Program-made: the position numbers and the translations under genes | Notes under the pieces: model-generated | What the model was told of the DNA's origin: nothing | The model's input: the letters and a program-made list of their open reading frames with translations, nothing else | Database searches by the model: none | Source: Arthrobacter sp. Soil782 | GTDB lineage: Bacteria > Actinomycetota > Actinomycetes > Actinomycetales > Micrococcaceae | Length of the DNA: 64,000 bases | Direction: 5' to 3' | Assembly (NCBI RefSeq): GCF_001428435.1 | Contig: NZ_LMSO01000001.1 | Span: 719,656-783,655, forward strand | Shown: positions 14,817 to 31,181 of the stretch, one piece after another | How positions within the stretch are numbered: position 1 is the first letter of the stretch | How the letters are laid out: each line of letters begins with the position of its first letter

Positions 14817-15440
14817 ATGCGCAGGGACTTCTATCGCGACCAGCACTCAGCCGCCGCCTTCTACAAACTCTTGACAGCGACGGTGGTGCCGCGGCCCATT
14901 GCGTGGGTGGCGTCGCGGTCGGAGAACGGTGTCGATAACCTCGCACCGCATTCCTTCTTCACCGTCGCGTCAACAGACCCCCCGATCATCCAGTTCACGT
15001 CTGTCGGCGAGAAGGACAGCTTGCGAAACATCCGTGCGAGCGGCGAGTTCACCGTGAACTTCACGCCGGAGAACCTGTTCGAGCGCGTCAACGCAACGGG
15101 CACCGCGTTCGAGCCGGAGGTGAGCGAGTTCGACGCCGCTGGCTTGCAACGCGAGGCGAGCACCCTGATCAGCACTCCGCGCGTATACGAATCTCCCGTT
15201 GCGCTGGAGTGCCGTCTGCACAGTCTCATTGCCGTCGGGAACTGCACGCTGATCCTGGGTGAGGTGGTCCACGCAGCCGTCTCCGAACAGGTGCTCGACG
15301 GCGATCACCCCCGCGTGGATCTACTCGAACCGTTGTCCCGCCTCGGCCGGGACGAATGGGGAACTCTCGGCGAGGTGCGCCGGATCAGGCGAATCCGCCT
15401 CGAGGACTGGCCCGGCTCATTCTCGGCAGGCGGTCAATGA
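14817..15440 (+). CDS. flavin reductase-like domain protein (FMN-binding split barrel)
   Basis: This 207-residue protein has the flavin-reductase-like pattern: FYKLLTATVVPRPIAWVAS (about 18-36), NLAPHSFFTVASTDPPII (about 44-61), then FTVNF and NATGTAFEPEVSEF. It should bind FMN and use NAD(P)H to reduce it, or act as an FMN-dependent oxidoreductase. It starts at ATG 14817 in a region without an obvious ribosome site. The next gene (alpha/beta hydrolase) follows on the same strand after 64 nt and may be co-transcribed. Confidence 0.8.
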   Translation: MRRDFYRDQHSAAAFYKLLTATVVPRPIAWVASRSENGVDNLAPHSFFTVASTDPPIIQFTSVGEKDSLRNIRASGEFTVNFTPENLFERVNATGTAFEPEVSEFDAAGLQREASTLISTPRVYESPVALECRLHSLIAVGNCTLILGEVVHAAVSEQVLDGDHPRVDLLEPLSRLGRDEWGTLGEVRRIRRIRLEDWPGSFSAGGQ

Positions 15441-15504
15441 TGGTCCCGGGAAACCCGGCCGCCCGGTTCGGGGCCCGGCCCAACTCATGCTCCGCGGACC
15501 GTCG

Positions 15505-16690: not shown

Positions 16691-16702
16691 GAAAACGTTT
16701 TC
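16691..16702. promoter_or_regulatory. LacI-type operator O1 (GAAAACGTTTTC)
   Basis: This perfect 12-bp palindrome lies immediately upstream of a promoter-like pair: TTGACG (16704-16709), a 17-nt spacer, then TAGGGT (16727-16732). The same core recurs at 16745-16762 and in the divergent lacI/Gfo-Idh promoter at 31168-31181. It probably binds the LacI protein encoded at 31273. Confidence 0.7.
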
Positions 16703-16703
16703 C

Positions 16704-16732
16704 TTGACGTGTGGCGCATCACACACTAGGGT
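16704..16732 (+). promoter_or_regulatory. sigma-70-type promoter of the first sugar ABC operon
   Basis: TTGACG and TAGGGT are separated by 17 nt, placed between two LacI-type operators. Occupation of the flanking operators would block polymerase binding or escape, giving tight repression. Confidence 0.55.
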
Positions 16733-16744
16733 CGTTTGCAGTCC

Positions 16745-16762
16745 TGAGAAAGCGTTTTCTCA
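16745..16762. promoter_or_regulatory. LacI-type operator O2 (TGAGAAAGCGTTTTCTCA)
   Basis: This is an 18-nt palindrome with a single mismatch, overlapping the predicted transcription start. Its centre is about 57 nt from that of O1, so looping or cooperative repression is possible. Confidence 0.65.
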
Positions 16763-16802
16763 GATTGCCTGCAAGAGCCCTACAACCCGACAGAAGGTTC
16801 CC

Positions 16803-16889
16803 ATGAAGCTTCCGAACGACGCGTTCGCGACGGCGCCGGAATGCGCCCGCCAGATCGCGGAAAGGAGCGGCGATGTCAGCTCTGAATGA
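16803..16889 (+). CDS. possible 28-codon leader ORF before the permease
   Basis: ATG at 16803, preceded by AGAAGG, opens a 28-codon frame starting MKLPNDAFATAPECARQ. It stops at 16889, 17 nt inside the downstream permease gene. The permease has its own GGAG site inside this frame. It could be a translational leader that keeps ribosomes over the permease start, or chance. No family is recognised. Confidence 0.3.
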   Translation: MKLPNDAFATAPECARQIAERSGDVSSE

Positions 16890-17817
16890 GATGTCCGGGC
16901 TGAAGAAAGAGCCGCGAGGAAAGAAGCGGAAGCTGACAGCCGCCGAGAGGAAGGAGGAGCTGGTTTCCTACCTGTTCCTCGCTCCCTGGCTGGTGGGTCT
17001 GGCCATCATCACAATCGGTCCGATGGCGGCGTCGCTGTACCTTTCCTTCACCGACTACAACCTCCTCCAGCCACCGGAATGGACCGGACTGGACAACTAC
17101 CTTCGGATGTTCGAGGACACCCGGCTCCAGAACTCCCTGGGAGTGACCTTCCTCTACGTCTTTGTCTCCGTTCCCCTCCAGCTCATTGCAGCACTGGCGC
17201 TTGCTCTGATCCTGGACCGCGGCATGCGGGGCCTGAGCTTCTACCGCTCGGTCTACTACCTGCCGTCCCTGCTCGGTGGCTCCGTTGCCATCGCAGTGCT
17301 GTGGCGTCAGATCTTCGGCACCTCCGGGCTCATCAACCAGCTTCTGGCACTGGTCGGTATCGAGGGCATGGGCTGGATCGCTGATCCCTCCACTGCGCTA
17401 GGCACGCTGATGGTGCTCAACGTCTGGACGTTTGGCGCACCGATGGTGATCTTCCTGGCCGGTCTCCGCCAGATCCCCACCATGTACTACGAGGCAGCGG
17501 CAATGGACGGCGCGTCGAAGGTGCGCCAGTTCACCACCATCACGGCCCCGCTGCTGACCCCAATCATCTTCTTCAACCTGGTGCTCCAGATCATCGGTGC
17601 TTTCCAGTCCTTCACCCAGGCATTCGTGGTGTCCGGCGGCACCGGCGGCCCTGCGGACTCAACGATGTTCTTCACGCTGTACCTCTACCAACAGGGCTTC
17701 GGCAATTTCAATATGGGGTACGCCTCGGCCATGGCGTGGCTGCTGCTGCTCATCATCGCCGCCTTTACCTTCATCAACTTCATCGCCTCGAAATGGTGGG
17801 TGTTCTATGACGACTAA
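16873..17817 (+). CDS. sugar ABC transporter permease (MalF-like)
   Basis: This 314-residue inner-membrane permease has six predicted helices after a basic N-terminal tail (KKEPRGKKRKLTAAERK). The cytoplasmic EAA loop reads YEAAAMDGASKVRQFTTI (about residues 207-224) and contacts an ATPase. It forms the heterodimeric channel with the next gene. It is the first structural gene of an operon controlled by two LacI-type operators. The window contains no ATP-binding subunit gene, so a shared MsiK/MsmX-type ATPase is presumed. The substrate is unknown; the downstream enzymes suggest a modified sugar or glycoside. Confidence 0.88.
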   Translation: MSALNEMSGLKKEPRGKKRKLTAAERKEELVSYLFLAPWLVGLAIITIGPMAASLYLSFTDYNLLQPPEWTGLDNYLRMFEDTRLQNSLGVTFLYVFVSVPLQLIAALALALILDRGMRGLSFYRSVYYLPSLLGGSVAIAVLWRQIFGTSGLINQLLALVGIEGMGWIADPSTALGTLMVLNVWTFGAPMVIFLAGLRQIPTMYYEAAAMDGASKVRQFTTITAPLLTPIIFFNLVLQIIGAFQSFTQAFVVSGGTGGPADSTMFFTLYLYQQGFGNFNMGYASAMAWLLLLIIAAFTFINFIASKWWVFYDD

Positions 17818-18745
17818 TATCGCGCCCCAGGCCAACACAGCCCCTGCTGCCACCCGAACGCCGACAAAAGCGGCACCGCCGGTCCGCCGGAAGAAGCGGA
17901 ATGACGAGGAACTGAGCGGAAGCACCGGGAGCCGGTTGCTGAAGCACATTGTGCTCATCGCTTTCGGCATCATCATGCTCTACCCGCTGCTGTGGATGCT
18001 TGTGAGCTCGCTGCGTCCAAACGATGTGATCTTCCGGGAGGCCGGCCTCTGGCTCACCACCTTCGAGATCAGCAACTACACCGAAGGCTGGAACGCCCTT
18101 CAATCACCGTTCGGGCACTACATGATCAATTCGATGATCGTGGTGGTCGGCTCGATCATCGGTAACCTGGTGTCCTGCTCAATGGCCGCCTACGCCTTCG
18201 CCCGGCTGAAATTCCGCCGTCGTAACCTGCTGTTCGCCATCATGCTCATGACGATCATGCTGCCCATTCACGTGATCATCGTGCCGCAGTACATCATCTT
18301 CTCGGAGCTGGGCTGGGTGAACACCTTCATTCCGCTGGTGCTGCCCAAGCTGCTTGCCACGGACGCGTTCTTCGTGTTTCTCATGGTGCAGTTCATCCGC
18401 GGACTGCCGAAAGAGCTGGACGAAGCTGCACGCATCGACGGCTGCGGCCACGTGCGGATCTTCACCCGCATCATCCTCCCCCTGATGATGCCCGCACTGG
18501 CAACAACCACCATCTTCACCTTCATCTGGACCTGGAACGACTTCTTCAGCCAGCTGATCTACCTGACCGACCCCGAAATGTACACGGTGCCCGTTGCGCT
18601 GCGGTCCTTCGTTGACAGCACCGCCACCTCTTCCTGGGGCTCGATGTTCGCCATGTCCATCGTCTCCCTCCTGCCCGTCTTCCTGGTGTTCCTGTTCGGC
18701 CAGAAGTACCTGGTCAAGGGCATCGCCACCACAGGCATCAAATAG
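17807..18745 (+). CDS. sugar ABC transporter permease (MalG-like)
   Basis: This 312-residue partner permease starts at ATG 17807 (MTTNIAPQANTA), overlapping the previous gene by 11 nt. A ~45-residue Pro/Ala/Lys-rich cytoplasmic tail precedes six helices. The EAA loop is DEAARIDGCGHVRIFTRI, about residues 204-221. CUT1-type transporters for oligosaccharides have this two-permease arrangement. The overlap indicates coupled synthesis of equal amounts of the two subunits. Confidence 0.88.
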   Translation: MTTNIAPQANTAPAATRTPTKAAPPVRRKKRNDEELSGSTGSRLLKHIVLIAFGIIMLYPLLWMLVSSLRPNDVIFREAGLWLTTFEISNYTEGWNALQSPFGHYMINSMIVVVGSIIGNLVSCSMAAYAFARLKFRRRNLLFAIMLMTIMLPIHVIIVPQYIIFSELGWVNTFIPLVLPKLLATDAFFVFLMVQFIRGLPKELDEAARIDGCGHVRIFTRIILPLMMPALATTTIFTFIWTWNDFFSQLIYLTDPEMYTVPVALRSFVDSTATSSWGSMFAMSIVSLLPVFLVFLFGQKYLVKGIATTGIK

Positions 18746-18790
18746 ACCGCTCCGGTCACAAGACAACTCGAAAGATTGGAAAGAGATTCA

Positions 18791-20095
18791 ATGAAGAAGT
18801 TCTCGCGTCCTGCCCGCACCCTTACCGCAGCCTCCCTCGCCGTCGTCCTCGGACTATCGATGGGCGCCTGCGGAAACGGCGGAAGTGAATCCGCCGGCGA
18901 CGGCAACCTCCGCTTCTCCTGGTGGGGCTCGGACCCACGCCACGAAGCCACGCAGGAAATCATCGACATCTACGAGTCGAACAACGAGGGCGTCACCGTA
19001 GCCGGTGAATTCTCAGACTTCTCCGGCTACTGGGACAAACTGGCGACGACGACGGCCGGCCGGGATGCGCCGGATGTCATCACCATGGACGAGAAATACA
19101 TCATGGAATACGCCGGCCGCGGCGCGCTGACTGACCTCACCGAACTCGAAAACCTCGACCTGTCCAAGTTCCCCGAGGCCGCACTGGACCTCGGACGCTA
19201 CGAGGACGGCGTGTACGGGCTGAGCACCGGCCAGAACGCCTACTCCGTGATGGTCAACGCGGACCTCTTCGCCGAAGCCGGCGTCGAGATCCCGGATGAC
19301 AGCACCTGGACCTGGGATGACTACTACGAGATCTCGGCCACGATCAGCGAGAACCTGGGCGAGGTTGCGGGAACCGACTACGGCGCACTCGACGGCGACC
19401 TGCGCATCTGGCTGCGCCAGAACGACGAAAAGCTTTACAGCGAGGATGAGCCGGGCACCGTGGGCTACTCGCAGGAGAACCTGCTCTCCTGGTTCGAGCA
19501 CCTGCTCCATGTCCGCGACACCGGTGGCGGCGTCAGCGCGGCACAGTTCACCGAGGCCGCTGCCGGCACCTTCGAGGCCGAGAACTTCCCGACCAAGAAG
19601 ACCGCCATGGGCTGGTACTGGTCCAACCAGCTCGGCGCCCTGCGTGCCGCCACCGGTGACGACATCCGCATTCTCCGGGTGCCCTCGCCGTCCGGCAACG
19701 CCGAGGACAACGGCATGTACTACAAGGCCTCCATGTACTGGTCCGTCTCCAGCCAGTCCGATAACCAGGCAGCCGCAGCGGACTTCGTGAACTTCCTGGC
19801 CAATGATCCCGCGGCCGCCGAGAAGATGCTCGTGGACCGCGGTGTTCCCGCCAACCCGGAGATGGCTGCAGCCATCGAACCGAAGCTCGATGAGTCCCAG
19901 CAGACGGTTGTCTCCTTCCTCGAGGAAATTGAACCCGAGGTCTCCGACTCACCGAAGCCCTCCCCCATTGGAGCGGGAACCGTTCAGGAGACCATCGTCC
20001 GCTACGTCGGTGAGGTCCTGTTCGACAACCTCACTCCGGAAGAGGCAACCGAACAGTTGACCGCTGAAATCGAAGGCATGATCAGCGCAGGCTGA
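18791..20095 (+). CDS. sugar-binding lipoprotein of the ABC importer, paralogue 1
   Basis: This 434-residue extracellular solute-binding protein (family 1) has an export signal MKKFSRPARTL, a hydrophobic stretch and the lipobox-like SMGACG, so it should be lipid-anchored on the outer face of the membrane. LRFSWWGSDPRHEATQEII follows at the start of the mature protein. ATG 18791 is preferred over ATG 18776 because it has the GGAAAGAGATT site and a standard signal peptide. The next gene encodes a close paralogue with the same leader region; one or both could serve the upstream permeases. Confidence 0.88.
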   Translation: MKKFSRPARTLTAASLAVVLGLSMGACGNGGSESAGDGNLRFSWWGSDPRHEATQEIIDIYESNNEGVTVAGEFSDFSGYWDKLATTTAGRDAPDVITMDEKYIMEYAGRGALTDLTELENLDLSKFPEAALDLGRYEDGVYGLSTGQNAYSVMVNADLFAEAGVEIPDDSTWTWDDYYEISATISENLGEVAGTDYGALDGDLRIWLRQNDEKLYSEDEPGTVGYSQENLLSWFEHLLHVRDTGGGVSAAQFTEAAAGTFEAENFPTKKTAMGWYWSNQLGALRAATGDDIRILRVPSPSGNAEDNGMYYKASMYWSVSSQSDNQAAAADFVNFLANDPAAAEKMLVDRGVPANPEMAAAIEPKLDESQQTVVSFLEEIEPEVSDSPKPSPIGAGTVQETIVRYVGEVLFDNLTPEEATEQLTAEIEGMISAG

Positions 20096-20149
20096 CCACG
20101 CAGCATCGAACCGAACCGCTATTCACCCGATAAAACAGGAAGAGATTCA

Positions 20150-21460
20150 ATGAAGAACTTCTCTCGCTCGACGCGAACTCTCACAGCTGCGGCTGCCGCG
20201 GTTGTGCTCACGGTGTCACTGGGCGCCTGCGGGAACGGCGGCGGTGACAGCGCCGCAGCAGGTGACGGGAATCTCCGCTTCTCCTGGTGGGGCTCGGATC
20301 CACGCCACGTAGCCAACCAGGAGATCATCGACATGTTCGAGGCCGAGAACGAGGGCATCACCATCGAGGGTGAATACTCGGACTTCGGCGGCTACTGGGA
20401 CAAGCTCGCGACGACGACGGCCGGCCGGGATGCGCCGGATGTCATCACGATGGATGAAAAGTACCTGCAGGAGTATGCCGGCCGCGGCGCCTTGGCGGAC
20501 CTCAGCACGCTCGAAGGCCTGGACACCTCCAAGTTCGACGACGCCGCCCTCAACCTTGGACGTTATGAGGACGGCCTGTACGGGCTGACCACCGGTCAGA
20601 ACGCCTACGTGATCATGGCAAATCAGGACCTGTTCGCGCAGGCAGGCATGGAACTCCCGGATGACACCACCTGGACGTGGGACGACTACTACCGCATCTC
20701 GGCTGAGCTGACTGAGAAGCTGGGCGGGGACATCGTCGGCACCGAGTATGGCGCCCAGGACGTGGACCTGCGGATCTGGCTCCGCCAGCAGGGTGAAAAC
20801 CTCTACAACGAGGATGAACCCGGCACCGTGGGCTACTCGCCGGAAACTCTGACCGCCTGGTTTGAACACCTCCTGGAGGTGCGCGACGGCGGGGGCCCGA
20901 GTGCCGCCCGCTATACCGAGGAGCTGTCGGGATCCTTCGAAGCCGGCGGTTTCGCCACCAACCGCGCGGCAATGGGTTGGTACTGGTCGAACCAGCTGTC
21001 GGCTGTGGAGTCCGCCAGCGGCAGCGAAGTGACCATGCTTCGTCCGCCGTCGGAGTCAGGTAACGCCGCTGAGAACGGCATGTACTACAAGGCCTCGATG
21101 TACTGGTCCGTCTCCAGCCAGTCCGATGACCAGGAAGCTGCCGCCGAGTTCGTGAACTACCTTGCGAACAACCCTGAGGCTGCGAAGAAGATGCTCGTTG
21201 ATCGCGGGGTACCCGCAAACCCGGACATGGCCGCCGCCATCGCCCCCGAGCTGAACGAAACCGATCAGACGGTGGTCGACTTCCTCGAGGAGATCAGCCC
21301 CGACATGGCCGCAGCCCCGCTGCCCTCCCCTGTTGGTGCCGGTGGCGTCCAGGACACGGTCAAGCGTTACGTCTCCGAGGCCCTCTTCGACAACCTGACT
21401 CCCGCTGAGGCAACGGAGAAACTAACCGCCGAAATCGAAGGGATGATCAGCGCAGGCTGA
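20150..21460 (+). CDS. sugar-binding lipoprotein of the ABC importer, paralogue 2
   Basis: This 436-residue protein is very similar throughout to its upstream neighbour: NLRFSWWGSDPRH, YWDKLATTTAGRDAPDVITM, GRYEDG and the C-terminal EATEKLTAEIEGMISAG all recur. The lipobox is SLGACG. The ribosome site and start are nearly identical in both genes (AAGAGATTCAATGAAGAA), evidence of tandem duplication including the leader. Differences are concentrated in the central domain, for example around residues 205-260, which may alter ligand preference. Confidence 0.88.
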   Translation: MKNFSRSTRTLTAAAAAVVLTVSLGACGNGGGDSAAAGDGNLRFSWWGSDPRHVANQEIIDMFEAENEGITIEGEYSDFGGYWDKLATTTAGRDAPDVITMDEKYLQEYAGRGALADLSTLEGLDTSKFDDAALNLGRYEDGLYGLTTGQNAYVIMANQDLFAQAGMELPDDTTWTWDDYYRISAELTEKLGGDIVGTEYGAQDVDLRIWLRQQGENLYNEDEPGTVGYSPETLTAWFEHLLEVRDGGGPSAARYTEELSGSFEAGGFATNRAAMGWYWSNQLSAVESASGSEVTMLRPPSESGNAAENGMYYKASMYWSVSSQSDDQEAAAEFVNYLANNPEAAKKMLVDRGVPANPDMAAAIAPELNETDQTVVDFLEEISPDMAAAPLPSPVGAGGVQDTVKRYVSEALFDNLTPAEATEKLTAEIEGMISAG

Positions 21461-21484
21461 TTGTCCCGGAACGGAACATTGATC

Positions 21485-23542
21485 ATGCTTGACCCCGCAT
21501 CCCGTCTGGCGCCTTCCCGGTACAGGACAGGAAACCCCGTTGCTGACGACCCCGCCCGCGTTGCACGTGTGGCCCTGGTGGGCGTTCATGGCTTCGGTGC
21601 CCGGCACCTCGACAACCTTCGCCGGTTGGAGGACGACGGCGCCGCCCGGCTGGTTGCCGTGGCGGACCCCCGTCCGCCCGAGGACGGGACGCTGGGTGCC
21701 GGGGTCGGTGTGTTCAACAATCTGGAGGACCTTCTCGCCGCAGGGGTGGCGCCCGACGTCGTCGTTATTGCCACCCCCATCCAGGCGCACGCGCCGCTCG
21801 CCCATGCGGCGATCGAGGCCGGCGCGGATGTGTACGTGGAGAAGCCTCCGGTGGCGTCGATGGAGCAGTACCACTCGCTCCTCGCCGCTGCTGACAAAGC
21901 AGGCGTTGCCGTGCAGACCGGGTTTCAGAGCCTGGGCTCGGCAGCGCTTGACCGGCTCGACGATCTCGTGGCATCGGGATCGCTGGGTTCGGTTCGGGGC
22001 GTCAGTGCGCTGGGGACCTGGGTGCGAACCCGGGGCTACTTTGGACGTTCCCGTTGGGCGGGAAAGCGAACGCTGGACGGCGTGGACGTGGTCGACGGCG
22101 TGGCCACCAATCCGCTTGCCCATGCGGTTGCGACCGCCCTTCGTGTGGCCGGTGCACGGAAGACGTCCGACGTGGCTACCGTCGAGACGGACCTGTACCG
22201 GGCCCACGACATCGAGTGCGATGACACGTCCACCATCCGGGTTCGGACGGCGTCCGGGACGGTGGTCATGCTCGCACTCACCCTGTGTGCCGCGGAGCAG
22301 ACGCGACCCAGCGTCACGCTCCACGGCACGCAGGGAACCGCCGTGCTGTATTACACGGAGGACGAACTGGCCGTCACCACGGCGGACGGCACCGTCATTG
22401 AGCACTTCGGGCGCGCCAACCTGCTGGAGAATCTGCTCGAACACCGGGCGTCCGGCACTCCCCTGCTCAGCCCGCTCGCCTGCTCCGGCGCGTTCATGCG
22501 GGTGCTCGACGCCGTCCGGCTGGCCCCACCGCCGCAACCCATTGATCCCTCGTACGTCACCTGGATCGGCGACGGCGACGAAGCCCACCCCGTGGTGCAC
22601 GGCATCGAGGACCTCCTGCAGCGCGCGTGTCACGCCCAGGCGACTATCGGCGAACTGTGCCCGGGCTGGGCGCGGCCGTCGCCGTCGTCGTCCGTGTCGC
22701 CGTCGTCGTTACCGCTTGTGCTGGACGGCCGCGAGGTCGGGTTCTACCGGGACGGCATCGCCGTCTCTCCCTTCCTTTCGCCGCGCCCCTACCTGCATCC
22801 CGTGGCCACGCGCGACGGCGTCATTGTCACCGACCACTTTCCCGCGGACCACGTGTGGCACCTCGGCGCGGGCATTGCGGTGCAGGACGTCGACGGCGTC
22901 AACGTCTGGGGCGGCCGGACCTACCGTCGCGAGGCGCAGGGTTACGTGTGGCGCGCGGACCACGGCCGGATCTCCCGCACCGGAATCACGCAGCATGGCG
23001 ACTCCCTCGAGGAGACGCTGCGCTGGAGCGGCCCCGACGGCGGCGCCCTGCTGCACGAAGCCCGCCGCATCAGCTGGCGTACGGTGAACGAGGCCGCCTG
23101 GGCGCTCACCATCGACTTCTCGCTGACACCCGCCGGCGAGAACCCGGTGGCCCTTGGGAGCCCGGGCTCGAATGGGCGGTCCGGCGGCGGCTACGGCGGC
23201 TTTTTCTGGCGCCTCCCCACCAGCGAAAACATCACTATCACGACGGCGGATGCCTCCGGTGAAGCGGGTGTCCACGGCACAGTGTCGGATTGGCTGTGCT
23301 GGCAGGGCATCTTTAGCGGCCGGCCGGCGACGCTTCTTTTCCTGCCCAACGACAACGCCATCGACCCCTGGTTCGTGAGGGCAGAGGGTTACCCCGGGGT
23401 GGGGCTTGCCCTCGCCTGGGACCGGCCGGTCACCACCACGCGCGAGGCTCCCCTGGCCCGCTCCGTCACCATCCTCATTGCCGACGGCGCTCTGACTCCT
23501 GACGCCGTGAGCACCCTCGCGGCCGAAGAAAGGCACCCATGA
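21485..23542 (+). CDS. Gfo/Idh/MocA oxidoreductase fused to a DUF6807 (PmoA-like) domain
   Basis: This two-domain protein has about 685 residues. The first ~390 are a Gfo/Idh/MocA oxidoreductase with a Rossmann motif (VALVGVHGFGARHLDNL) and the family signature YVEKPP near residue 120. From about residue 410, after a Ser/Pro-rich linker, the sequence becomes a DUF6807/PmoA-like beta-sandwich (PRPYLHPVATRDG, FPADHVWHLGAGIAVQDVDG, GGFFWRLPTSENI). Such domains usually occur as separate proteins in sugar-catabolism loci. The likely role is NAD(P)-dependent oxidation of an imported glycoside with the second domain aiding substrate handling. ATG 21485 is chosen over TTG 21461. It overlaps the next gene by 4 nt. 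Confidence 0.78.
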   Translation: MLDPASRLAPSRYRTGNPVADDPARVARVALVGVHGFGARHLDNLRRLEDDGAARLVAVADPRPPEDGTLGAGVGVFNNLEDLLAAGVAPDVVVIATPIQAHAPLAHAAIEAGADVYVEKPPVASMEQYHSLLAAADKAGVAVQTGFQSLGSAALDRLDDLVASGSLGSVRGVSALGTWVRTRGYFGRSRWAGKRTLDGVDVVDGVATNPLAHAVATALRVAGARKTSDVATVETDLYRAHDIECDDTSTIRVRTASGTVVMLALTLCAAEQTRPSVTLHGTQGTAVLYYTEDELAVTTADGTVIEHFGRANLLENLLEHRASGTPLLSPLACSGAFMRVLDAVRLAPPPQPIDPSYVTWIGDGDEAHPVVHGIEDLLQRACHAQATIGELCPGWARPSPSSSVSPSSLPLVLDGREVGFYRDGIAVSPFLSPRPYLHPVATRDGVIVTDHFPADHVWHLGAGIAVQDVDGVNVWGGRTYRREAQGYVWRADHGRISRTGITQHGDSLEETLRWSGPDGGALLHEARRISWRTVNEAAWALTIDFSLTPAGENPVALGSPGSNGRSGGGYGGFFWRLPTSENITITTADASGEAGVHGTVSDWLCWQGIFSGRPATLLFLPNDNAIDPWFVRAEGYPGVGLALAWDRPVTTTREAPLARSVTILIADGALTPDAVSTLAAEERHP

Positions 23543-24669
23543 CCACCACTTCAGCCCCCGGCCTTGACACGCTTTCGGCTCCAACTGCCGCGCCAACTGC
23601 CGCGCGTGTCGATGACTCCGGCGACGAGCGCGCCATCAAGCGCAGCCGGGTACTTGAGATTCTTGACCGTACCGGCCACGAGTCCCTGCTGTTGACCAGC
23701 AACACGGCGATGACGTGGTACCTGGGCGGGAGCCGTCTGCACATCAGCCTCGCGGGGGATCCCATCGCCATGCTGCTTGTTGACCGCGAACGGGACCACC
23801 TGGTCACGTTCAATAACGAAGCGGACCGGCTGATGCGCGAGGAGCTGCCGGCCGACGTCGTCGTTCATCCGGTTCCCTGGCACGGATCCATGCACGAGGT
23901 GATGAGCCGGCTGTCCCCTTCGCAGCCGCTGGATGAGGCGAGCGTGCGGCGGGAGCTGCGCAACGCGAGGCAGTCGCTGCTTCCCGTGGAAGTGGAGCAG
24001 TACACAGAACTGAACACGGAGGTCGCGGGTGCGCTGACCGATGTGCTCTCCGCTGCCAGGCCGCATACACCGGAACGGGACATCGCCGCTGAACTGGGCG
24101 CGCGGGTCATCGCCATGGGCGCTGAGCCACTGGTTCTGCTCTGCAACGGCCGTGAGCGGTCTGCTTTCCGGCACCCGCTGCCGACGTCGTCGCCATTGGG
24201 TCGGCGGGCGATGGCGGTCGTGTGCGCGCGGCGTCGGGGAATGGTTGCTAACGTCACGCGTTGGGTCCGGTTTGACGGGTCAACGGCCGCCGAGCGTGAC
24301 GCCGAAGCACGCATTGCTGCCGTGGAGGCTGACATTTTCGCGGCGACCGTGCCGGGTGCGCGGTTGGACGGAATTTTCGATGTCATCCACAGTTCCTATG
24401 CCGCTCACGGCTTCGGGCCCGACCAGTGGCGGCTGCACCATCAGGGCGGCCCCGCCGGCTACGCGGGCAGGGATCCGCGGGTCACGGCGTCGACTGATGA
24501 CGAGGTTGTGCCCAATCAAGCGTTCACCTGGAACCCGTCCGGCCCCGGAGTGAAAATCGAGGACACCGTGCTGCTCACTGCCGAAGGGATCCGGGTGCTC
24601 AGCGTCGATGAACGCTGGCCGACGGTCGAGGTGAACGGCCTGCAGCGGCCAATGACCCTCGAAATCTAG
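23539..24669 (+). CDS. M24 (creatinase/aminopeptidase-fold) protein lacking key metal ligands
   Basis: This 376-residue pita-bread-fold protein has a creatinase-like N-terminal half (ESLLLTSNTAMTWYLGGSR) and an M24-like C-terminal half. One histidine (LHHQGGPAGYAGRD) and one glutamate (GVKIEDTVLL) of the usual metal set are visible, but the two aspartates normally in a D-x-G...D-x-T-R region are absent: the region reads MVANVTRWVRFDG. It may be catalytically inactive as a peptidase, or use creatinase-like metal-free chemistry. Translational coupling to the Gfo/Idh-DUF6807 gene points to a sugar-pathway role. Confidence 0.72.
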   Translation: MTTTSAPGLDTLSAPTAAPTAARVDDSGDERAIKRSRVLEILDRTGHESLLLTSNTAMTWYLGGSRLHISLAGDPIAMLLVDRERDHLVTFNNEADRLMREELPADVVVHPVPWHGSMHEVMSRLSPSQPLDEASVRRELRNARQSLLPVEVEQYTELNTEVAGALTDVLSAARPHTPERDIAAELGARVIAMGAEPLVLLCNGRERSAFRHPLPTSSPLGRRAMAVVCARRRGMVANVTRWVRFDGSTAAERDAEARIAAVEADIFAATVPGARLDGIFDVIHSSYAAHGFGPDQWRLHHQGGPAGYAGRDPRVTASTDDEVVPNQAFTWNPSGPGVKIEDTVLLTAEGIRVLSVDERWPTVEVNGLQRPMTLEI

Positions 24670-24674
24670 GGCAC

Positions 24675-24730
24675 TTTTGCGCAGCTCCGGTGGGTTCCAG
24701 CGCCGTGGAACCCACCAGAGCTGCACAAAA
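24675..24730. repeat. dispersed palindrome family A, copy 2 (bidirectional terminator)
   Basis: Arms of 25 bp (24675-24699 and 24706-24730) pair with two C/A mismatches around a 6-nt loop. The left arm begins TTTTGCGCAGCTCCGGTGGG and the right ends in CACAAAA, giving T-runs on either strand. It lies between the convergent ends of the M24-like gene and the esterase gene, an ideal bidirectional terminator position. Confidence 0.85.
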
Positions 24731-24757
24731 TTTCCTGTTCGATGGAGTTCCTGGAGG

Positions 24758-25384
24758 TCAGCGGCGGCCCAGCCAGTCAACCGCCGCTTCCAGGTCTGCG
24801 CGATCAATACCGTGACCGCCCTCCCGAAGAACCTGTTCGACGTCGGCGCCCTGCCGCTGCAATTCGCCCACCAGCGTAGTGACGCTGGGCAGCGGCGCCA
24901 TGGGGTCGGACCGCCCATTCAGCACCAGGAAGCTGCTGCCGGAAAGGGAAACCTCCGTGCTCCGCTCACCGAACGGGTACATGCCCGAGAACGCAACCAC
25001 GCGCTTCAGCGCTTCCGGGTGCAGCATCGCGGTGGCCAAAGCGATGTTGGCACCATTGGAGAAGCCGACGGCGATGATCTCCCGGTTGCCGGCGTCATAG
25101 TGCTGCCGCGCTTCGGCGATGAAACCGGCCAGTTCTCCCGCACGGAGGATGACGTCGTCGACGTCGAACACGCCCTCCGCGCGCCGGGCAAACCAGCGCA
25201 GCATGCCGTTCTCCTGCACCCTGCCGCGTGGCGCAAGCACAGCTGCGGCCGGATCCAGCTGCGCTGCGAGCGTCGCAATGTCCTCCTCGTTTGAACCCGT
25301 ACCGTGCAGCATCAGGAGGAGTGAACGCCCGGGGTCGCCCTCATGGTAGAGGTGCGGCCAGTCATTGAATTGCGGTGCGGACAT
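24758..25384 (-). CDS. phospholipase/carboxylesterase-type alpha/beta hydrolase
   Basis: This 208-residue small esterase has LLLMLHGTGSNEED (oxyanion loop, about 21-34), nucleophile motif GFSNGANIAL with Ser near 108, acid in NGRSDPMAP and His in EGGHGID. The family hydrolyses carboxylic esters in the cytosol. Its start shares one base with the stop of the upstream dioxygenase gene (TGATG, 25382-25386). This pairing of a VOC ring-cleaving dioxygenase with an esterase matches the MhqO/MhqD-type quinone-stress pair known in Bacillus, an inference from arrangement. Confidence 0.85.
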   Translation of the reverse strand: MSAPQFNDWPHLYHEGDPGRSLLLMLHGTGSNEEDIATLAAQLDPAAAVLAPRGRVQENGMLRWFARRAEGVFDVDDVILRAGELAGFIAEARQHYDAGNREIIAVGFSNGANIALATAMLHPEALKRVVAFSGMYPFGERSTEVSLSGSSFLVLNGRSDPMAPLPSVTTLVGELQRQGADVEQVLREGGHGIDRADLEAAVDWLGRR

Positions 25385-26379
25385 CAGGCGATGCCTCCGG
25401 CTGGCTGATCATTGTGGCCGGCGAGCACATTGTTGTCTTCCGGAACCTCGATACGCGCCACCGAGGCTTCGATGTCCTCGCGCGAGGGCTCGAGCCACGG
25501 CGGCAGCTTCAGTGAGCGCCCGAGTTCCAGGAGCGGCTCATCGACGTTGAAGCCCGGAGTGTCCGTCGCAATCTCGAAGAGCACGCCGCCCGGTTCGCGG
25601 AAGTAGATCGAGGTGAAGTACTGGCGGTCGAGAATCGCTGTCACCGCGAACCCGCGCTCAACGAGATCCTGTCGCCACAGCTCCTGGGTCGCCTTATCCG
25701 GAACCCGGAAGGCGATGTGGTGCACGGTTCCGCCGGCCACGAGTCCGTAGGGCCCGGCAGGATCAGCAATGACGTCGATAATGTTCCCGGGGCCGCCGTC
25801 GCCTGCTTGTAAACGGGTGCGTCCGGGAGCCTCGTCGGAGATTCTCAGCCCGAGGTCTTCGGTGAGGACGCGCAGGGTGTGCTCGGGGTTCGAAACCGTT
25901 AACACGGAGGAGTGCTGGCCGCGGACGGCATGCTCCGCAGGGACAAAGGACGAGTCCCAGGGGTTGCGGGGATCGGAGGTCGAGGAGGCCACGAGGTCGA
26001 GCTGGAGTCCGTCAGGATCGCGCAGCGAAAGCCTTTCCTCATCCTCGGACGCCAGCGAGATGGAGGACTCCACGCCGAGGTCGCGGAAGTGGTTCTGCCA
26101 CCAGCCGAGGCTCCCCTCGGGCACCGAGAAGGCGGTGGTGGTGGACTGGCCCGAACCGATTCGACCGGGTGCCACCTGGCCCCACGGGAAGAAGGTCATG
26201 AGCGAGCCCGGTCGGCCGGCGTCGTCGCCGTAGTACAGGTGATAGGTGGACGGGTCATCGAAGTTGACCGTCTTCTTCACAAGCCGCAGTCCGAGTCCGC
26301 GGATATAGAAGTCGATGTTGGCCTGCGGGTCACCCGCAATGGCGGTGACATGGTGCAGGCCAGTGGTGTGCGCTGTCAT
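25384..26379 (-). CDS. VOC-family ring-cleaving dioxygenase (MhqO-like)
   Basis: This 331-residue protein has two tandem glyoxalase/extradiol domains. His in GLHHVTAIAGDPQ (near residue 9) is in the first, and FRVPDK, YFTSIYFREPGGVLFEIATD (about 252-271) in the second supplies Glu/His ligands. MhqO-type enzymes are thought to cleave hydroquinone or catechol-like rings, protecting against quinones. It is the first gene of a two-gene operon; a strong dyad (26423-26442) upstream probably binds its regulator, which is not encoded nearby. Confidence 0.85.
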   Translation of the reverse strand: MTAHTTGLHHVTAIAGDPQANIDFYIRGLGLRLVKKTVNFDDPSTYHLYYGDDAGRPGSLMTFFPWGQVAPGRIGSGQSTTTAFSVPEGSLGWWQNHFRDLGVESSISLASEDEERLSLRDPDGLQLDLVASSTSDPRNPWDSSFVPAEHAVRGQHSSVLTVSNPEHTLRVLTEDLGLRISDEAPGRTRLQAGDGGPGNIIDVIADPAGPYGLVAGGTVHHIAFRVPDKATQELWRQDLVERGFAVTAILDRQYFTSIYFREPGGVLFEIATDTPGFNVDEPLLELGRSLKLPPWLEPSREDIEASVARIEVPEDNNVLAGHNDQPAGGIA

Positions 26380-26422
26380 GGTGATCCTCCGGAAGGTTCC
26401 GGTCGGCCCGGCGGTCGACGTT

Positions 26423-26442
26423 GTACATGCAAATGCATATAC
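26423..26442. promoter_or_regulatory. 20-bp dyad operator upstream of the VOC dioxygenase
   Basis: GTACATGCAA and ATGCATATAC form a two-fold symmetric site with four mismatched positions in 20 bp, core ATGCAAATGCAT. It is AT-rich in a GC-rich region and lies 44-63 nt upstream of the dioxygenase start and 35 nt from the divergent APH-like gene. It suits a MarR/TetR-size dimer sensing quinones; the protein is not in this window. Confidence 0.5.
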
Positions 26443-26476
26443 CTTCGCACTTATTCCCCGGACCGGACGCTAGTGT

Positions 26477-27568
26477 GTGACCGTGAACGATGCGCTCTAC
26501 GAGCTGAAAGCAGCCGTTACCGACGCCGTGGGCGGCCCCGTTACTGCACTGGCTGACGTCGAGCGGATCCCGCTGGATTACGACGCCTTCCTCGCCCACC
26601 GGACGGTGAGCCGAATCCAGGGACACGCGCTCGTTGGGGGTGAACGCGTTGCATGGTCCATGATCGAGAAGCGCACCGAGGGGCCGGCCCTGGCCTCCGC
26701 GTACCTTCTTGACAACGGACGGCGTGAGGTCAACGCCTACGCCTCCGGAGTGCTGGCTGGAATAGCTCCCGGCATCGGCACACCACGGATGCACGGGAAA
26801 TTGCGTGATGCGGAGGGAGGAATGACCCTCTGGCTTGAGGAGATCCGTCATGGAGGTGCAAGACCGCTGGACGCGGAGACTGTCCTCGCCGCAGCGCGTG
26901 ATCTGGGCGGCATGGGCGGGCTGTGGGCCGGGCGCCGGCTCTCAGAACCCTGGTACTTCTCTGGGTGGATTGACCGCCATAGCCAGCCTGAAGCCATTGA
27001 GCAGGGCCTGGCCACACTGCGGCGCCGGGACCCACGCGCAGCTGCCCATCTCGGTGACCGGCTGGCTGCCGCCGAGCAGCTGGTCCTCAACCAAGCCCGT
27101 TACCGCGGGATTCTGGAATCGCTCCCGCAGACCCTGTGCCACCACGATGCCGGAGGCGCAAACGTCTTCCACTCGGGCGGCCGGACCGTTCTGATCGACT
27201 GGGAATCCATCGGTCCCGGCCCCGTGGGAGCGGACCTGGCTTCGTTGCTTTTCTCCTCGGTCCGCCGTGGCGATGCCCTCGCGAGCGTCGTGATGCCGCT
27301 GGTTGAAGAGGCTCTGGACGCTTACTCCACAGCCCTCAGGGCAGAAGCACCCACCGTCACGTTTGAGGACATCCGCCTGGGGTTCGACGCCGCGGTTGCA
27401 CTTCGCTGGAAGCTGGCCGTCGACGTCGTCGCTGGTATCGAGAAGGGTGAGCCCCCGCGGCGGGGAAGCCTCCCGGACGAGGACCCGGCAGCGGCACTGG
27501 AGGAGCTGATAGCACTCGTGGATCTGCTCCTCGCGTCAGCCGGCCGCGCACTCCACAAAGCCCCGTGA
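26477..27568 (+). CDS. aminoglycoside phosphotransferase-family kinase
   Basis: This 363-residue protein has an APH-type kinase fold. The catalytic Brenner loop reads CHHDAGGANVF (H-D-x4-N) near residues 220-228 and the metal-binding Asp is in VLIDWESIGPGPVGADLAS. The N-terminal domain is less conserved than in drug-modifying APHs, so the substrate may be a sugar or other small alcohol rather than an antibiotic. It starts at GTG 26477, and its 3' end overlaps the convergent enolase-superfamily gene by 33 nt. Confidence 0.78.
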   Translation: MTVNDALYELKAAVTDAVGGPVTALADVERIPLDYDAFLAHRTVSRIQGHALVGGERVAWSMIEKRTEGPALASAYLLDNGRREVNAYASGVLAGIAPGIGTPRMHGKLRDAEGGMTLWLEEIRHGGARPLDAETVLAAARDLGGMGGLWAGRRLSEPWYFSGWIDRHSQPEAIEQGLATLRRRDPRAAAHLGDRLAAAEQLVLNQARYRGILESLPQTLCHHDAGGANVFHSGGRTVLIDWESIGPGPVGADLASLLFSSVRRGDALASVVMPLVEEALDAYSTALRAEAPTVTFEDIRLGFDAAVALRWKLAVDVVAGIEKGEPPRRGSLPDEDPAAALEELIALVDLLLASAGRALHKAP

Positions 27569-28636
27569 GTTAGGTACGATCTCCAGGCCCAGTCCCGGCT
27601 GGCCGGTCACCGTAAGCCCGGATTCCGTGATGCTGACCGGCGAAGGACCGGCGAGGATGCCCAGCTCAGTCATGGTGGCGCCGTCGACCGCTTCCACCCA
27701 CACCGTCTCCGCCAGGGTGGAGGCAAGCTGTCCCGAAAGCTCCGGAAGCAGGTGCGGAGCCACTGCGATGCTGTTGGCCCGGGCAAGCTCAACGATGCGC
27801 CGGAACGGAGTGATTCCACCGACGCGGATGATGTTGGGTTGGATGATGTCGACGGCGTCCGCCTCGATAAAGTCCCGGAACCGGTAGATGGTGTGCACGT
27901 TTTCACCCAGTGCGATGGGCACCGGCGAGGAGCGACGCAGCCGCCGGTAGGCAGAGAGGTCGTCTGCGCGGATCGGTTCTTCGAGCCAGTGCAGGCCGTA
28001 TTCCGCCAGCCGTTCAAGCGCCCGCAGGGTTGTGGGCAGGTCCCACCGCTGGTTGGCGTCAATCATCAGTGCGCGGTCGGGACCGATGACCTCGCGGACT
28101 GCGGCGATCCGCTCCGCATCCTCGCGCAGGTCCGGCTTACCCACCTTCACCTTGACCGCCTGCCGGCCTTCTGTAACCCACCGCTGGGCCTGCTCAACGA
28201 GCTCCTCAAGCGTGTAGTGCAGGTTCACTCCCGATCCATACACCGGCACGGTTTCCCGACGGCGGCCCAACAGGTCAGGTACGGAACACCCGGCCTGCTT
28301 CCCTGCCAGATCCCACAGCGCAAGGTCGACGCCAGCCATCGCGATGGTGGTCAGCCCTCCCCCGCCTGCCTCATGGAGCCGGACCCAGAGTGCATCCCAC
28401 ACCTCCTCCGCACGGGCAGAGAGGCCCTCCACAAAGGGGGCGATGTCATATTCCAGCAACGCCAGCACTGCCTGCGGCCCGATGGTGGGCGTCCACGAAA
28501 AGCCGTGTCCCACACCGCCGTCGTCGGTTGTCACCGTCGTCGCGATGAAGTGGTTTTCCGGCACGTCCGCTCCCCAGGCACGCCGAAGCGGCGCCGTGAC
28601 CACGCGCGAGGACAGGCCGGTGATCTTGACATTCAT
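27536..28636 (-). CDS. enolase-superfamily dehydratase/racemase (mandelate racemase type)
   Basis: This 366-residue protein has the mandelate-racemase/muconate-cycloisomerase layout. The general base KVKVG supplies Lys162/Lys164, metal ligands are Asp193 (MIDAN), Glu219 (LEEP) and Glu245 (LGEN), and His295 (VAPHLLPE) is in the position of the second base. Lys plus His suggests a sugar-acid dehydratase or racemase. It is the last gene of a minus-strand series with an SDR epimerase and Gfo/Idh oxidoreductase, which together could convert an imported uronate- or aldonate-type compound. Confidence 0.82.
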   Translation of the reverse strand: MNVKITGLSSRVVTAPLRRAWGADVPENHFIATTVTTDDGGVGHGFSWTPTIGPQAVLALLEYDIAPFVEGLSARAEEVWDALWVRLHEAGGGGLTTIAMAGVDLALWDLAGKQAGCSVPDLLGRRRETVPVYGSGVNLHYTLEELVEQAQRWVTEGRQAVKVKVGKPDLREDAERIAAVREVIGPDRALMIDANQRWDLPTTLRALERLAEYGLHWLEEPIRADDLSAYRRLRRSSPVPIALGENVHTIYRFRDFIEADAVDIIQPNIIRVGGITPFRRIVELARANSIAVAPHLLPELSGQLASTLAETVWVEAVDGATMTELGILAGPSPVSITESGLTVTGQPGLGLEIVPNSRGFVECAAG

Positions 28637-28689
28637 GCGCCCACGAGCTCACGGCCGGCGGCAGGAACGGCCTTATTGAACTGCATGAC

Positions 28690-29652
28690 TCACCGTGCTT
28701 CCTGGCTTGCGGTTGCGAGCTCCGGTGGAACGAGTTCCAATGGAACGAGTTCCTTGCGCCAGCTACGTTTCGGCTCCCAGCCGAGCAGCTTGCGCGCCTT
28801 GTCGATCGAGAAGGCCGGGCTGGTTCCGTGCAGGTTCCCGGCGAGCGCACCCACCGCGGGGAGGTAGCGCGGGATGAGCTCGGACAGCGGCTCGCGTGCC
28901 AGTGCATCGGCTGCGCCCACGAAGAAGGTCTCAGCGTTCGGGATTCTATCCATGGACTGCAGCAGCACGTCAAGGAAATCCGCGACGTCCCGTGCGTCCA
29001 CGTAGTTGAAAATGGCCGGCGCGGACAACGCGGGATCATCCAGCCGTTCGACGACGGTGTGCCCCTGCTGCGTCGGCGCACCAGCCCACTCCTCCGGCGA
29101 GATGACATAGCAGGGCCGGAACGCGGCGTACCGGATCCGCTCGCCCTGCGCGGCCGCGAACATGCGCATGGTTTGCTCGGCAAGCAGCTTGGAGAGCGCG
29201 TAAGCGTTCCAGGGCTTCGGCGTTGTCTGCTCATTCAGCGGGAAGGCGTCCGGCATCCAACCGGCGGGTGCGCCGTAGCCAAGCACCGTGGGGCTTGACG
29301 CCGTGATGATCCTGCCGACACCAAGGGTGGTCGCTGCGTCCATCACCTGGAAGGCGAGTTGGCTGTTGGTCTGCAGGATCACGTCCTCCGGCGCACTGAA
29401 GGGCACGGCGATCGCGGCAAGGTGGATGACGGCGTCGGGCCGGTGGTTTTCCAGCACGCTTAGCGCAACGCCGGGAGCCAGCAGGTCAGCCGCTTCCTGG
29501 CGGATCTGAGTGGGGAACACGCCGTCGAGAACCGGCGCGCGGTCCACAGAGACGACGTCGTAGCCTGCCTCAGCGAGGCCGGTCACCACACTGCGGCCCA
29601 GCCTGCCGGAGCCTCCCGTCACCAGGACGGTAGTCTGCGCCAGCTCAGCCAC
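28690..29652 (-). CDS. NAD-dependent epimerase/dehydratase (extended SDR)
   Basis: This 320-residue extended SDR has Rossmann motif TVLVTGGSGRLGRSV (about 10-24), Ser in ITASSPTVLGYG and the YALSK catalytic dyad near residue 162. GTG at 29652 is chosen: it overlaps the stop of the upstream Gfo/Idh gene by 8 nt, and nothing homologous lies before it. It probably oxidises or epimerises a sugar or sugar acid. Its position between the Gfo/Idh gene and the enolase-superfamily gene supports a three-step pathway. Confidence 0.82.
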   Translation of the reverse strand: MAELAQTTVLVTGGSGRLGRSVVTGLAEAGYDVVSVDRAPVLDGVFPTQIRQEAADLLAPGVALSVLENHRPDAVIHLAAIAVPFSAPEDVILQTNSQLAFQVMDAATTLGVGRIITASSPTVLGYGAPAGWMPDAFPLNEQTTPKPWNAYALSKLLAEQTMRMFAAAQGERIRYAAFRPCYVISPEEWAGAPTQQGHTVVERLDDPALSAPAIFNYVDARDVADFLDVLLQSMDRIPNAETFFVGAADALAREPLSELIPRYLPAVGALAGNLHGTSPAFSIDKARKLLGWEPKRSWRKELVPLELVPPELATASQEAR

Positions 29653-31090
29653 GGCGCACCGCGCCCTTGGACGCGCGGTCGTCGGCGGCACGGTCGGCTG
29701 CAAGGTCCGCTCCGAGGCCGAGTTCGCTGATGCGTACGGGCAGCGAGGATTCGAGTGAGGCGTTGCCGGCAATACCGACCGCGACGGCGCGCAGACCGTC
29801 CAGATAGCCTGACGGCCTGCCCAGCGGGTCCTCGCCGGGGCCCTCGAAGAGGTCCGTGAGCAGCAGCGCATCACCGCCGCCGTGGCCGCCCTCTCCGTTC
29901 ACAATCGGCACTTCGACGGCGGGTTCCCAGTGGCGCTGCAGAATGAGGCGTTCGCCGTTGATCCGGACGGCGTCGTCTTCCTGCACCGGTGTGGCATTGG
30001 GATCGACGACGTTCTTTTGATCCGTGCTGCCGGAAACTGCGGCCCGCTCCACGACCTCGAGTTCAACGCGGCCCAGCGTTCCGTTCACGGCAACCCGGTA
30101 GCCCTCCCAGGGGCTGTGCGCGTTCAGCGAGTAGCTGAGGGTCGCTCCGGAGGCGTAGTCCACCACGAGGGCAAGGTTGTCCTCAATGGTGATGCCGGGG
30201 GCGAAGACGTCCTGGTCGCGCTGATACCCGTCGTGGTGTTCGTTGGCGTAGTAGAGGTTGTTCAGCTTCTCATCCTCACGCAGGTCGAGGGCGAACGGAT
30301 CCCCCGCGGCCGAGTCTGTGGTTCCGCGCCCCGGCCGGTCCGTCAGCCCGCGCCCGGCAGCGTTGCGGTCCCCGTAAAAACGCAGCCCGCCGCTGGCGAA
30401 GACACGTTCAGGGACGTCATCGATCCACCAGTTCACGAGGTCGAAGTGATGTGACGCCTTGTGAATCAGCAACCCGCCGGAGTTCTCCTTCTGCCGGTGC
30501 CAGCGGCGGAAGTAGTCGGCGCCGTGGACAGTGTCCAGCATCCAGCTGAAGTCGATGGACGTCACGGTGCCGATCGCGCCGCTCCGGATGATCTCCTTCA
30601 GCGCGCTGTTGCGAGGTGAATACCGGTAATTGAAGGTCACGACGACGTCGCGTCGCGTGCGGTCAACTGCCTCGCAGATCCGGCGGCAACCCTGGGTATT
30701 GATGGTCAGCGGCTTTTCGACGACGACGTCCGCTCCCGCTTCCAGCGCCTCGACGATGTAATCGGCATGCGTGTAGTCAGGTGTGGTCACGATGACGCGG
30801 TCAATGCCGTTGTCCCGGATGAACTGCGTCAGCTCCTCCGGGCGGAACTGCGCGACTTCTGTCTCCGCCGAGAGTTCGGCGGCGAGATCGAGGTAATACT
30901 CCACCCGTCCCGGGTTGGTGTCGCTGATTGCCACGAGCTCGGCTGAGGACGCATGATCGCCGAGGGCAGCGCGTACGTACATTTCCGCCCGCGAGCCGGT
31001 GCCCACGAGCACCAGACGGGTACGTTTGCGTTGCTCCGACGTCGAATTGGCCTGCTGCTGGGCAGGAAGCGTATGGGGGGCGGTGCTCAT
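29645..31090 (-). CDS. Gfo/Idh/MocA-family oxidoreductase
   Basis: This 481-residue NAD(P)-dependent oxidoreductase has a Rossmann motif LVLVGTGSRAEMYVRAAL (about 27-44), the EKPL signature in VVVEKPLTIN near residue 125 and a long C-terminal beta-sheet domain with IHKASHHFDLVNWWI. It is longer than typical members (about 350-400), with an inserted segment around 240-290. It is the first gene after the divergent operator at 31168, so it is almost surely controlled by the adjacent LacI. It probably oxidises a specific hydroxyl of the substrate imported by the 16.9-24.7 kb operon. Confidence 0.85.
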   Translation of the reverse strand: MSTAPHTLPAQQQANSTSEQRKRTRLVLVGTGSRAEMYVRAALGDHASSAELVAISDTNPGRVEYYLDLAAELSAETEVAQFRPEELTQFIRDNGIDRVIVTTPDYTHADYIVEALEAGADVVVEKPLTINTQGCRRICEAVDRTRRDVVVTFNYRYSPRNSALKEIIRSGAIGTVTSIDFSWMLDTVHGADYFRRWHRQKENSGGLLIHKASHHFDLVNWWIDDVPERVFASGGLRFYGDRNAAGRGLTDRPGRGTTDSAAGDPFALDLREDEKLNNLYYANEHHDGYQRDQDVFAPGITIEDNLALVVDYASGATLSYSLNAHSPWEGYRVAVNGTLGRVELEVVERAAVSGSTDQKNVVDPNATPVQEDDAVRINGERLILQRHWEPAVEVPIVNGEGGHGGGDALLLTDLFEGPGEDPLGRPSGYLDGLRAVAVGIAGNASLESSLPVRISELGLGADLAADRAADDRASKGAVRRG

Positions 31091-31167
31091 GGGGCTCCTT
31101 CGGGTACCTGCATCAGCGGAAGATGCGACACCGTGACTGTGAGAAGTAACTGTCAGCGAAAACTATG

Positions 31168-31181
31168 AGAAAACGTTTTCT
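31168..31181. promoter_or_regulatory. LacI-type operator O3 (AGAAAACGTTTTCT)
   Basis: This perfect 14-bp palindrome lies in the 182-nt divergent promoter between lacI (31273) and the Gfo/Idh gene (31090). Its core is identical to the operator at 16691-16702, linking two operons 14 kb apart. Confidence 0.7.

Follow-up and report, generated by a model that had tools for sequence, protein, structure and literature searches.

Two groups of genes, about 14 kb apart, lie in a 64,000-nucleotide stretch (the window) of contig NZ_LMSO01000001.1 of Arthrobacter sp. Soil782. One encodes an ATP-binding cassette (ABC) sugar importer, a Gfo/Idh/MocA dehydrogenase fused to a DUF6807 domain and an M24-fold protein. 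The other encodes a second Gfo/Idh dehydrogenase, an epimerase-family short-chain dehydrogenase (SDR) and an enolase-superfamily (MR_MLE) enzyme, in this order on the minus strand, with a lacI gene divergent from the operon. Both groups are preceded by the same palindrome. Do they form one regulon, and what would such a regulon be for? The comparison described here suggests that it is, with good probability, a LacI-repressed regulon for pectin-derived hexuronates (galacturonate or oligogalacturonate) that feeds an oxidative hexuronate route. The binding of LacI, its effector and every enzymatic activity are predictions from sequence.

A shared predicted operator and its regulator

The regulator and its predicted sites are as follows.

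16691..16702, unstranded: predicted operator O1, an exact copy of GAAAACGTTTTC, one base before a TTGACG -35-like hexamer
16704..16732, plus strand: by-eye assignment of a sigma-70-like promoter, TTGACG-17 bp-TAGGGT, flanked by O1 and O2
16748..16759, unstranded: predicted operator O2, the near-copy GAAAGCGTTTTC, inside the 16-bp sequence GAGAAAGCGTTTTCTC
31169..31180, unstranded: predicted operator of the divergent Gfo/Idh-lacI promoter, an exact copy of GAAAACGTTTTC, with the Gfo/Idh start 78 bp away and that of lacI 92 bp away
31273..32292, plus strand: LacI-family protein, predicted to regulate the regulon (PF00356 and PF13377, both over cut-off)

A preliminary description of this DNA had reported identical sites at 16691 and 31169, and both are exact copies of GAAAACGTTTTC. 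The near-copy that it placed at 16745 exists, as GAAAGCGTTTTC, but begins at 16748. As judged by eye, the importer promoter is bracketed, with O1 one base 5' of TTGACG and O2 just 3' of TAGGGT. The exact sequence has only these two copies in the whole genome (3,422,365 bases in 14 contigs), where a first-order Markov estimate gives 0.0013 copies for a window and about 0.07 for a genome; the reversed control pattern of GAAAACGTTTTC has none in the genome and none in all 38 Arthrobacter genomes compared. With up to two mismatches the window contains five matches, against a mean of 1.24 after shuffling, and five were reached in 1 of 100 shuffles. Those at 27158 and 54653, with two mismatches each, were set aside because they are not above the chance expectation. 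Four more sites in the genome have one mismatch: O2, one before a PL11 rhamnogalacturonan lyase gene, and two within coding sequences of genes that resemble, by eye, ABC-transporter ATPases.

The LacI-family uronate regulators UxaR, UxuR, KdgR and ExuR have an even palindrome with a central CG, mostly 30-140 bp upstream (PMC4052901). GAGAAAACGTTTTCTG has this form, and the sites in the window are 78, 92 and 113 bp from start codons, O1 at 170 bp being beyond the commonest range. The predicted system resembles these regulators in the LacI family, the even central-CG palindrome and the uronate genes. UxaR, UxuR and KdgR were described from Bacteroides, and the word 'Arthrobacter' is absent from the main text of that paper. 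The literature searched, mostly titles and the beginnings of abstracts, contained no galacturonate LacI regulon of Arthrobacter.

The protein encoded at 31273 has both a helix-turn-helix (HTH; PF00356) and a periplasmic-binding-protein-like sensor domain (PF13377). It is one of 15 LacI-type HTH proteins of the genome (14 over cut-off and one below), and its gene is the only one of the 15 with GAGAAAACGTTTTCTG within 600 bp upstream; different palindromes precede the genes of two other regulators, that of the adjacent GH42 locus and the LacI near the PL11 lyase. Across the 38 genomes, the exact operator is found in the same 10 that have a close orthologue of this LacI (69-100% identity). The exact site is missing from 28 genomes, and 27 have neither site nor orthologue. 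The remaining genome, G025, is the eleventh whose LacI match reaches E 1e-60; its protein is 56% identical, the exact site is absent, and between lacI and the importer lies another palindrome, GTGAAACCGCTTTCAC. By our own arithmetic, two sets of 10 in 38 would coincide with a chance of about 2e-9, which is not a true probability, the genomes being related.

The shared site could instead be a matter of coincidence or ancestry, with different LacI paralogues acting through convergent operators. A paralogous LacI at C1:709335 has a similar recognition helix and a palindrome, TGGAAAGCGCTTTCCA, related to GAGAAAACGTTTTCTG, and O2, like the PL11 site, has an intermediate sequence. The joint presence of exact site and close orthologue in 10 genomes and their joint absence from 27 argue against this, as does the absence of the GAGAAAACGTTTTCTG palindrome upstream of any other LacI-type gene in the genome, and there is very little chance that this explanation is the right one. 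The proposal that the LacI encoded at 31273 would control both transcription units through one shared predicted operator, as the preliminary description had put it, is supported.

Operator copies in related genomes

The 38 genomes contain 23 exact copies of the operator, and every one is upstream of pathway genes. Ten are between Gfo/Idh and lacI. Six precede the importer (in G028 the importer remnant), four a PF13347 sugar symporter gene (G034, G003, G024 and G017), two a pectate lyase gene (G034 and, beside lacI, G003) and one a PL11 rhamnogalacturonan lyase gene (G022). The Pfam assignment of the four transporters was made on the G034 protein, to which the other three are 72-84% identical. 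One-mismatch sites precede the pectate lyase gene beside lacI in G022, the PF13347 transporter gene beside lacI in G007 and the PL11 rhamnogalacturonan lyase gene in G003. In 11 genomes searched, an upstream site was present at all three pectate lyase homologues (E 1e-15; two exact, one with one mismatch; two adjoining lacI) and at all five symporter orthologues (E 1e-50; four exact, one with one mismatch).

The importer promoter is readable in 7 of the 10 genomes, G022, G032 and G007 being excluded by contig ends. O1 is exact in six of the seven and has one mismatch in G021, and O2 and the TTGACG hexamer are invariant in all seven. The lacI operator is exact in all 10 orthologous Gfo/Idh-lacI intergenic regions. 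O2 and the lacI operator form invariant blocks in alignments whose mean column identity, with end gaps counted, is 47% for the importer promoter and 51% for the Gfo/Idh-lacI region. In G028 (L101, 3061-7589) the importer half looks decayed, with no permease match, a partial first solute-binding protein, and the fusion and the M24 protein matched piecewise; the operators and the lacI half are kept.

The co-occurrence of LacI and site, together with the copies upstream of genes in relatives, ties the site to the LacI encoded at 31273 and the regulon to pectin. The preliminary description had proposed import, then oxidation and dehydration, of an unusual glycoside or sugar acid. A single LacI regulon unrelated to pectin would accommodate the two Gfo/Idh dehydrogenases, DUF6807 and the M24 protein, which are not known to belong to any uronate route. 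It would also agree with the NCBIfam scan of 10 proteins, none of which passed an equivalog cut-off for a hexuronate enzyme, and with the absence from the window genome of matches to both the pectate lyase (E 1e-15) and the symporter (E 1e-50) of G034. This alternative is improbable, however, given the operator before all three pectate lyase genes (once with one mismatch) and before PL11 genes, exactly in G022 and with one mismatch in G003, and given KdgD within the cluster of relatives. Because the same operator is shared with pectate lyase and rhamnogalacturonan lyase genes, the 'unusual glycoside' has been dropped; the import of a sugar acid and its subsequent oxidation and dehydration have been kept, the chemistry being assigned by family resemblance.

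A known regulon of comparable scope is that of Thermotoga maritima UxaR, a GntR-family protein, in which one regulator governs a secreted pectate lyase, a digalacturonate ABC importer and galacturonate catabolism (PMC3750489). The predicted Arthrobacter regulon is similar in placing a pectate lyase (in relatives), an importer and catabolic genes under one regulator, but it has other catabolic enzymes and a regulator of the LacI rather than the GntR family. No polygalacturonase was found among the window proteins scanned, a search that did not extend to the rest of the genome.

The proposed hexuronate route

The gene content given in the preliminary description (two permeases, two binding proteins, Gfo/Idh-DUF6807, M24, MR_MLE, epimerase-type SDR, Gfo/Idh and LacI) was found in full. 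Besides lacI, the genes of the two halves and of the interval between them are these.

16873..17817, plus strand: ABC sugar permease 1 (PF00528)
17807..18745, plus strand: ABC sugar permease 2 (PF00528), its start set by comparison with G034
18791..20095, plus strand: solute-binding protein 1 (PF13416/PF01547)
20150..21460, plus strand: solute-binding protein 2, 72% identical to solute-binding protein 1
21485..23542, plus strand: Gfo/Idh/MocA dehydrogenase-DUF6807 fusion (PF01408, PF22725, PF14100)
23539..24669, plus strand: M24-fold protein (PF00557) with three of five metal ligands absent
24758..27568, unstranded: MhqD-like esterase, glyoxalase and APH, a variable block outside the regulon whose content differs between genomes
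27536..28636, minus strand: MR_MLE enzyme (PF13378), putative acid-sugar dehydratase or lactone cycloisomerase
28633..28686, minus strand: 17-codon in-frame kdgD remnant (54 bp, MQFNKAVPAAGRELVGA)
28690..29652, minus strand: epimerase-family SDR (PF01370), proposed uronate C1 dehydrogenase
29645..31090, minus strand: Gfo/Idh/MocA dehydrogenase of 481 amino acids, from the domain scan of the window proteins

In the mechanism that we propose, LacI would bind, when inducer is absent, to O1 and O2 around the importer promoter and to the divergent promoter of its own gene. It would be released by galacturonate or an oligogalacturonide, and the ABC importer would take the substrate in. Ahead of the release of free uronate, a glycoside or other conjugate may be processed by the Gfo/Idh-DUF6807 fusion and the M24 protein. 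The uronate would be oxidised by a Gfo/Idh enzyme and/or the SDR, and the aldarate or its lactone would be dehydrated by the MR_MLE enzyme. KdgD (5-dehydro-4-deoxyglucarate dehydratase) and a semialdehyde dehydrogenase would complete the route to 2-oxoglutarate.

The MR_MLE enzyme has TalGalacDh as its best NCBIfam model, at 229 bits under a cut-off of 500, and its relatives in the Protein Data Bank (PDB) include the talarate/galactarate dehydratase 2pp0 and, at 6e-46, 4ggb, which we take to be Gci. It also matches arabinonate dehydratase, and the KdgD of G034 falls under its equivalog cut-off, as might be expected if the genes served a pentose (Weimberg-type) pathway with a pentonate dehydratase and, in place of KdgD, a DapA-family 2-keto-3-deoxypentonate dehydratase. 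TalGalacDh is matched far better than arabinonate dehydratase, however (8e-68 vs 5e-42), and the operator is common to pectinases. Furthermore, galactarate/altronate dehydratase-like (GD_AH) genes lie alongside DUF6807 homologues in two distant loci (L111, 15501-17093, and L110, 7636-9222). A pentose pathway is therefore highly improbable. In the SDR, Y148 and K152 of the YxxxK motif are invariant in 11 of 11 sequences.

The cluster of relatives is more complete than that of the window. A full-length kdgD of about 301 codons is located between the SDR and MR_MLE genes in all 10 other genomes searched, with products 73-92% identical to the G034 query in eight genomes and 62% in G025. The G034 protein passes the NCBIfam subfamily model, with 395.8 bits against a cut-off of 278. 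Relative to G034, the kdgD remnant of the window corresponds to an in-frame loss of 852 bp. A 42%-identical kdgD paralogue at C1:1295568, beside an aldehyde dehydrogenase gene and a second MR_MLE gene, may replace the deleted gene in this strain. No semialdehyde dehydrogenase gene was found among the window cluster proteins scanned. In three loci scanned (L100, L101 and L109) an Aldedh gene, a candidate for this function, is beside MR_MLE.

The oxidative hexuronate pathway of Agrobacterium tumefaciens comprises Udh, Gli, Gci, KdgD and 2-ketoglutarate semialdehyde dehydrogenase (PMC6353982). It resembles the cluster of the relatives, in which the SDR, the enolase-superfamily enzyme and KdgD adjoin and three loci scanned have an aldehyde dehydrogenase beside them. 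The Arthrobacter cluster differs in its longer, epimerase-type SDR, in the additional two Gfo/Idh dehydrogenases, DUF6807 and M24 protein, and in the deletion of kdgD in the window. The earlier statement that no characterised pathway combines these genes is not upheld, because the clusters of relatives also contain KdgD and, at three scanned loci, an aldehyde dehydrogenase.

The DUF6807 part of the fusion is predicted to have a galactose-mutarotase-like fold, and in the literature searched DUF6807 is mentioned in one paper, as a Pfam number. The M24 protein gave weak prolidase matches only in a sequence search. Aligned with 5cdl (phmmer, E 5e-4), it has V227 and N238 opposite two Asp residues, leaves one Glu unmatched and keeps H301 and E341, the identities of the five ligands being presumably those of the family. 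All four named residues are the same in every one of the 10 sequences aligned, the piecewise-matched G028 protein being excluded. Literature searches on PmoA with Gfo and pectin found no mention of PmoA, and those on peptidase M24/creatinase combined with Gfo, uronate and gene cluster found no match.

The 481-residue Gfo/Idh protein matches, weakly, the glucuronide-3-dehydrogenase 8tdi (E 1.7e-13). This recalls the Gfo/Idh-initiated cleavage of glycosides through 3-keto intermediates (8tdi, the levoglucosan pathway), whose dehydrogenases belong to the same superfamily. Loci of that pathway feature an AP_endonuc_2-type lyase. The present locus, unlike these, has DUF6807 fused instead, and no AP_endonuc_2 lyase is found among 20 window proteins scanned. 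It is conceivable, though doubtful, that the fusion, the 481-residue Gfo/Idh and the ligand-poor M24 protein constitute an undescribed ring-oxidising route that would split galacturonides and replace polygalacturonase, DUF6807 acting as a lyase, hydrolase or epimerase on the keto-sugar.

Arrangement of the locus and its surroundings

The preliminary description regarded the split between the two halves as a special feature. This is not supported: the M24 gene adjoins the MR_MLE gene in G021, so that the 14-kb split is largely due to intervening genes. None of the three genes of the variable block is matched in G021, only APH is matched in G024, and only the esterase and glyoxalase in G003. The Gfo/Idh-DUF6807 fusion is present, as a single frame or in pieces, in 10 of 57 genomes (own included) at 64-100% identity, and in all 10 LacI and the 481-residue Gfo/Idh are nearby, at a distance of up to about 20 kb, which in G022 includes a contig break. 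Judged from gene order, the finding within this Arthrobacter group is one locus with an insertion.

Seven more distant loci (L105 and L109-L114) were also read. Permeases, a binding protein, LacI and the Gfo/Idh and/or DUF6807 part are found, in varied order, in L105, L109, L111, L112 and L113; in L114 the LacI match is weaker, and nothing but the Gfo/Idh and DUF6807 parts is present in L110. The SDR and MR_MLE are matched in just one of the seven, L109 (from G025), itself without a fusion match (E 1e-10). The other six have DUF6807 or its Gfo/Idh part without SDR and MR_MLE at the same threshold.

Immediately upstream of O1, a flavin-reductase-looking gene (by eye) and an alpha/beta-hydrolase gene (window 14817-16623) are conserved in several relatives; the operators lie downstream of both. 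On the other side, a GH42 beta-galactosidase locus (window 32947-36171) has a divergent LacI of its own, with two palindromes that mirror each other. This locus, from 32.9 kb, was rejected as a regulon member because its LacI has the different palindromes CTGTGAACGTTCCCAG and CTGGGAACGTTCACAG.

The PL11 rhamnogalacturonan lyase gene of the window genome (C1:792409-794967) is 58 kb from O1, encodes a probably secreted protein and has GAAAGCGTTTTC 30 bp before its start. Among nine presumed orthologues (own included), four have GAAAGCGTTTTC, four GAAAGCGCTTTC and one GTAAACGTTTTC; two more PL11 genes (in G025 and on C51 of G032) carry GAAAGCGGTTTC. Six further PL11 copies have no site at up to two mismatches, but the stretch concerned belongs to longer open frames and not to their promoter. 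The related TGGAAAGCGCTTTCCA of the C1:709335 LacI makes the ownership of GAAAGCGCTTTC-type sites ambiguous. By eye, the paralogous LacI with TGGAAAGCGCTTTCCA (L183, 5925-10331; L100, 14780) adjoins AP_endonuc_2- and Gfo/Idh-looking genes, and TGGAAAGCGCTTTCCA also precedes a Gfo/Idh gene in G007. A second, separate Gfo/Idh and DUF6807-like pair (L181, 2404-4408; G000 C1:805.9-807.9 kb) occurs in a locus with an FGGY kinase, about 11 kb after a PL11 lyase; this may be a rhamnose/rhamnogalacturonan locus.

Several of these observations weigh against a hexuronate regulon. The 38 genomes are related, and the co-occurrence of site and LacI is consequently not a set of independent events. The window genome is without the pectate lyase and symporter, so that the link to pectin comes mainly from relatives. 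Given the mixed sites of the PL11 orthologues, its PL11 site may belong to another LacI, that at C1:709335. KdgD is gone from the window cluster, and the G034 protein misses the equivalog model (276 bits against a cut-off of 374). The SDR, by its sequence, is not recognisable as a uronate dehydrogenase: its match to Udh (3rft) is 1.1e-6 only, weaker than the epimerase-type matches, and its fold model (mean pLDDT 69) gives general epimerase-type SDR matches, Udh being absent from the best 50 matches listed, which excludes nothing. Finally, the DUF6807 half and the SDR-MR_MLE half are separable over distance, which weakens the claim of one fixed pathway.

A regulon for pectin-derived hexuronates would give DUF6807 and the ligand-poor M24 protein a concrete setting, that of pectin-derived sugar acids, with a named regulator and a testable operator, in which a few candidate substrates would suffice to assay both. 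Across species, the core operator of this LacI regulon would remain identical while its pectinases and transporters vary.

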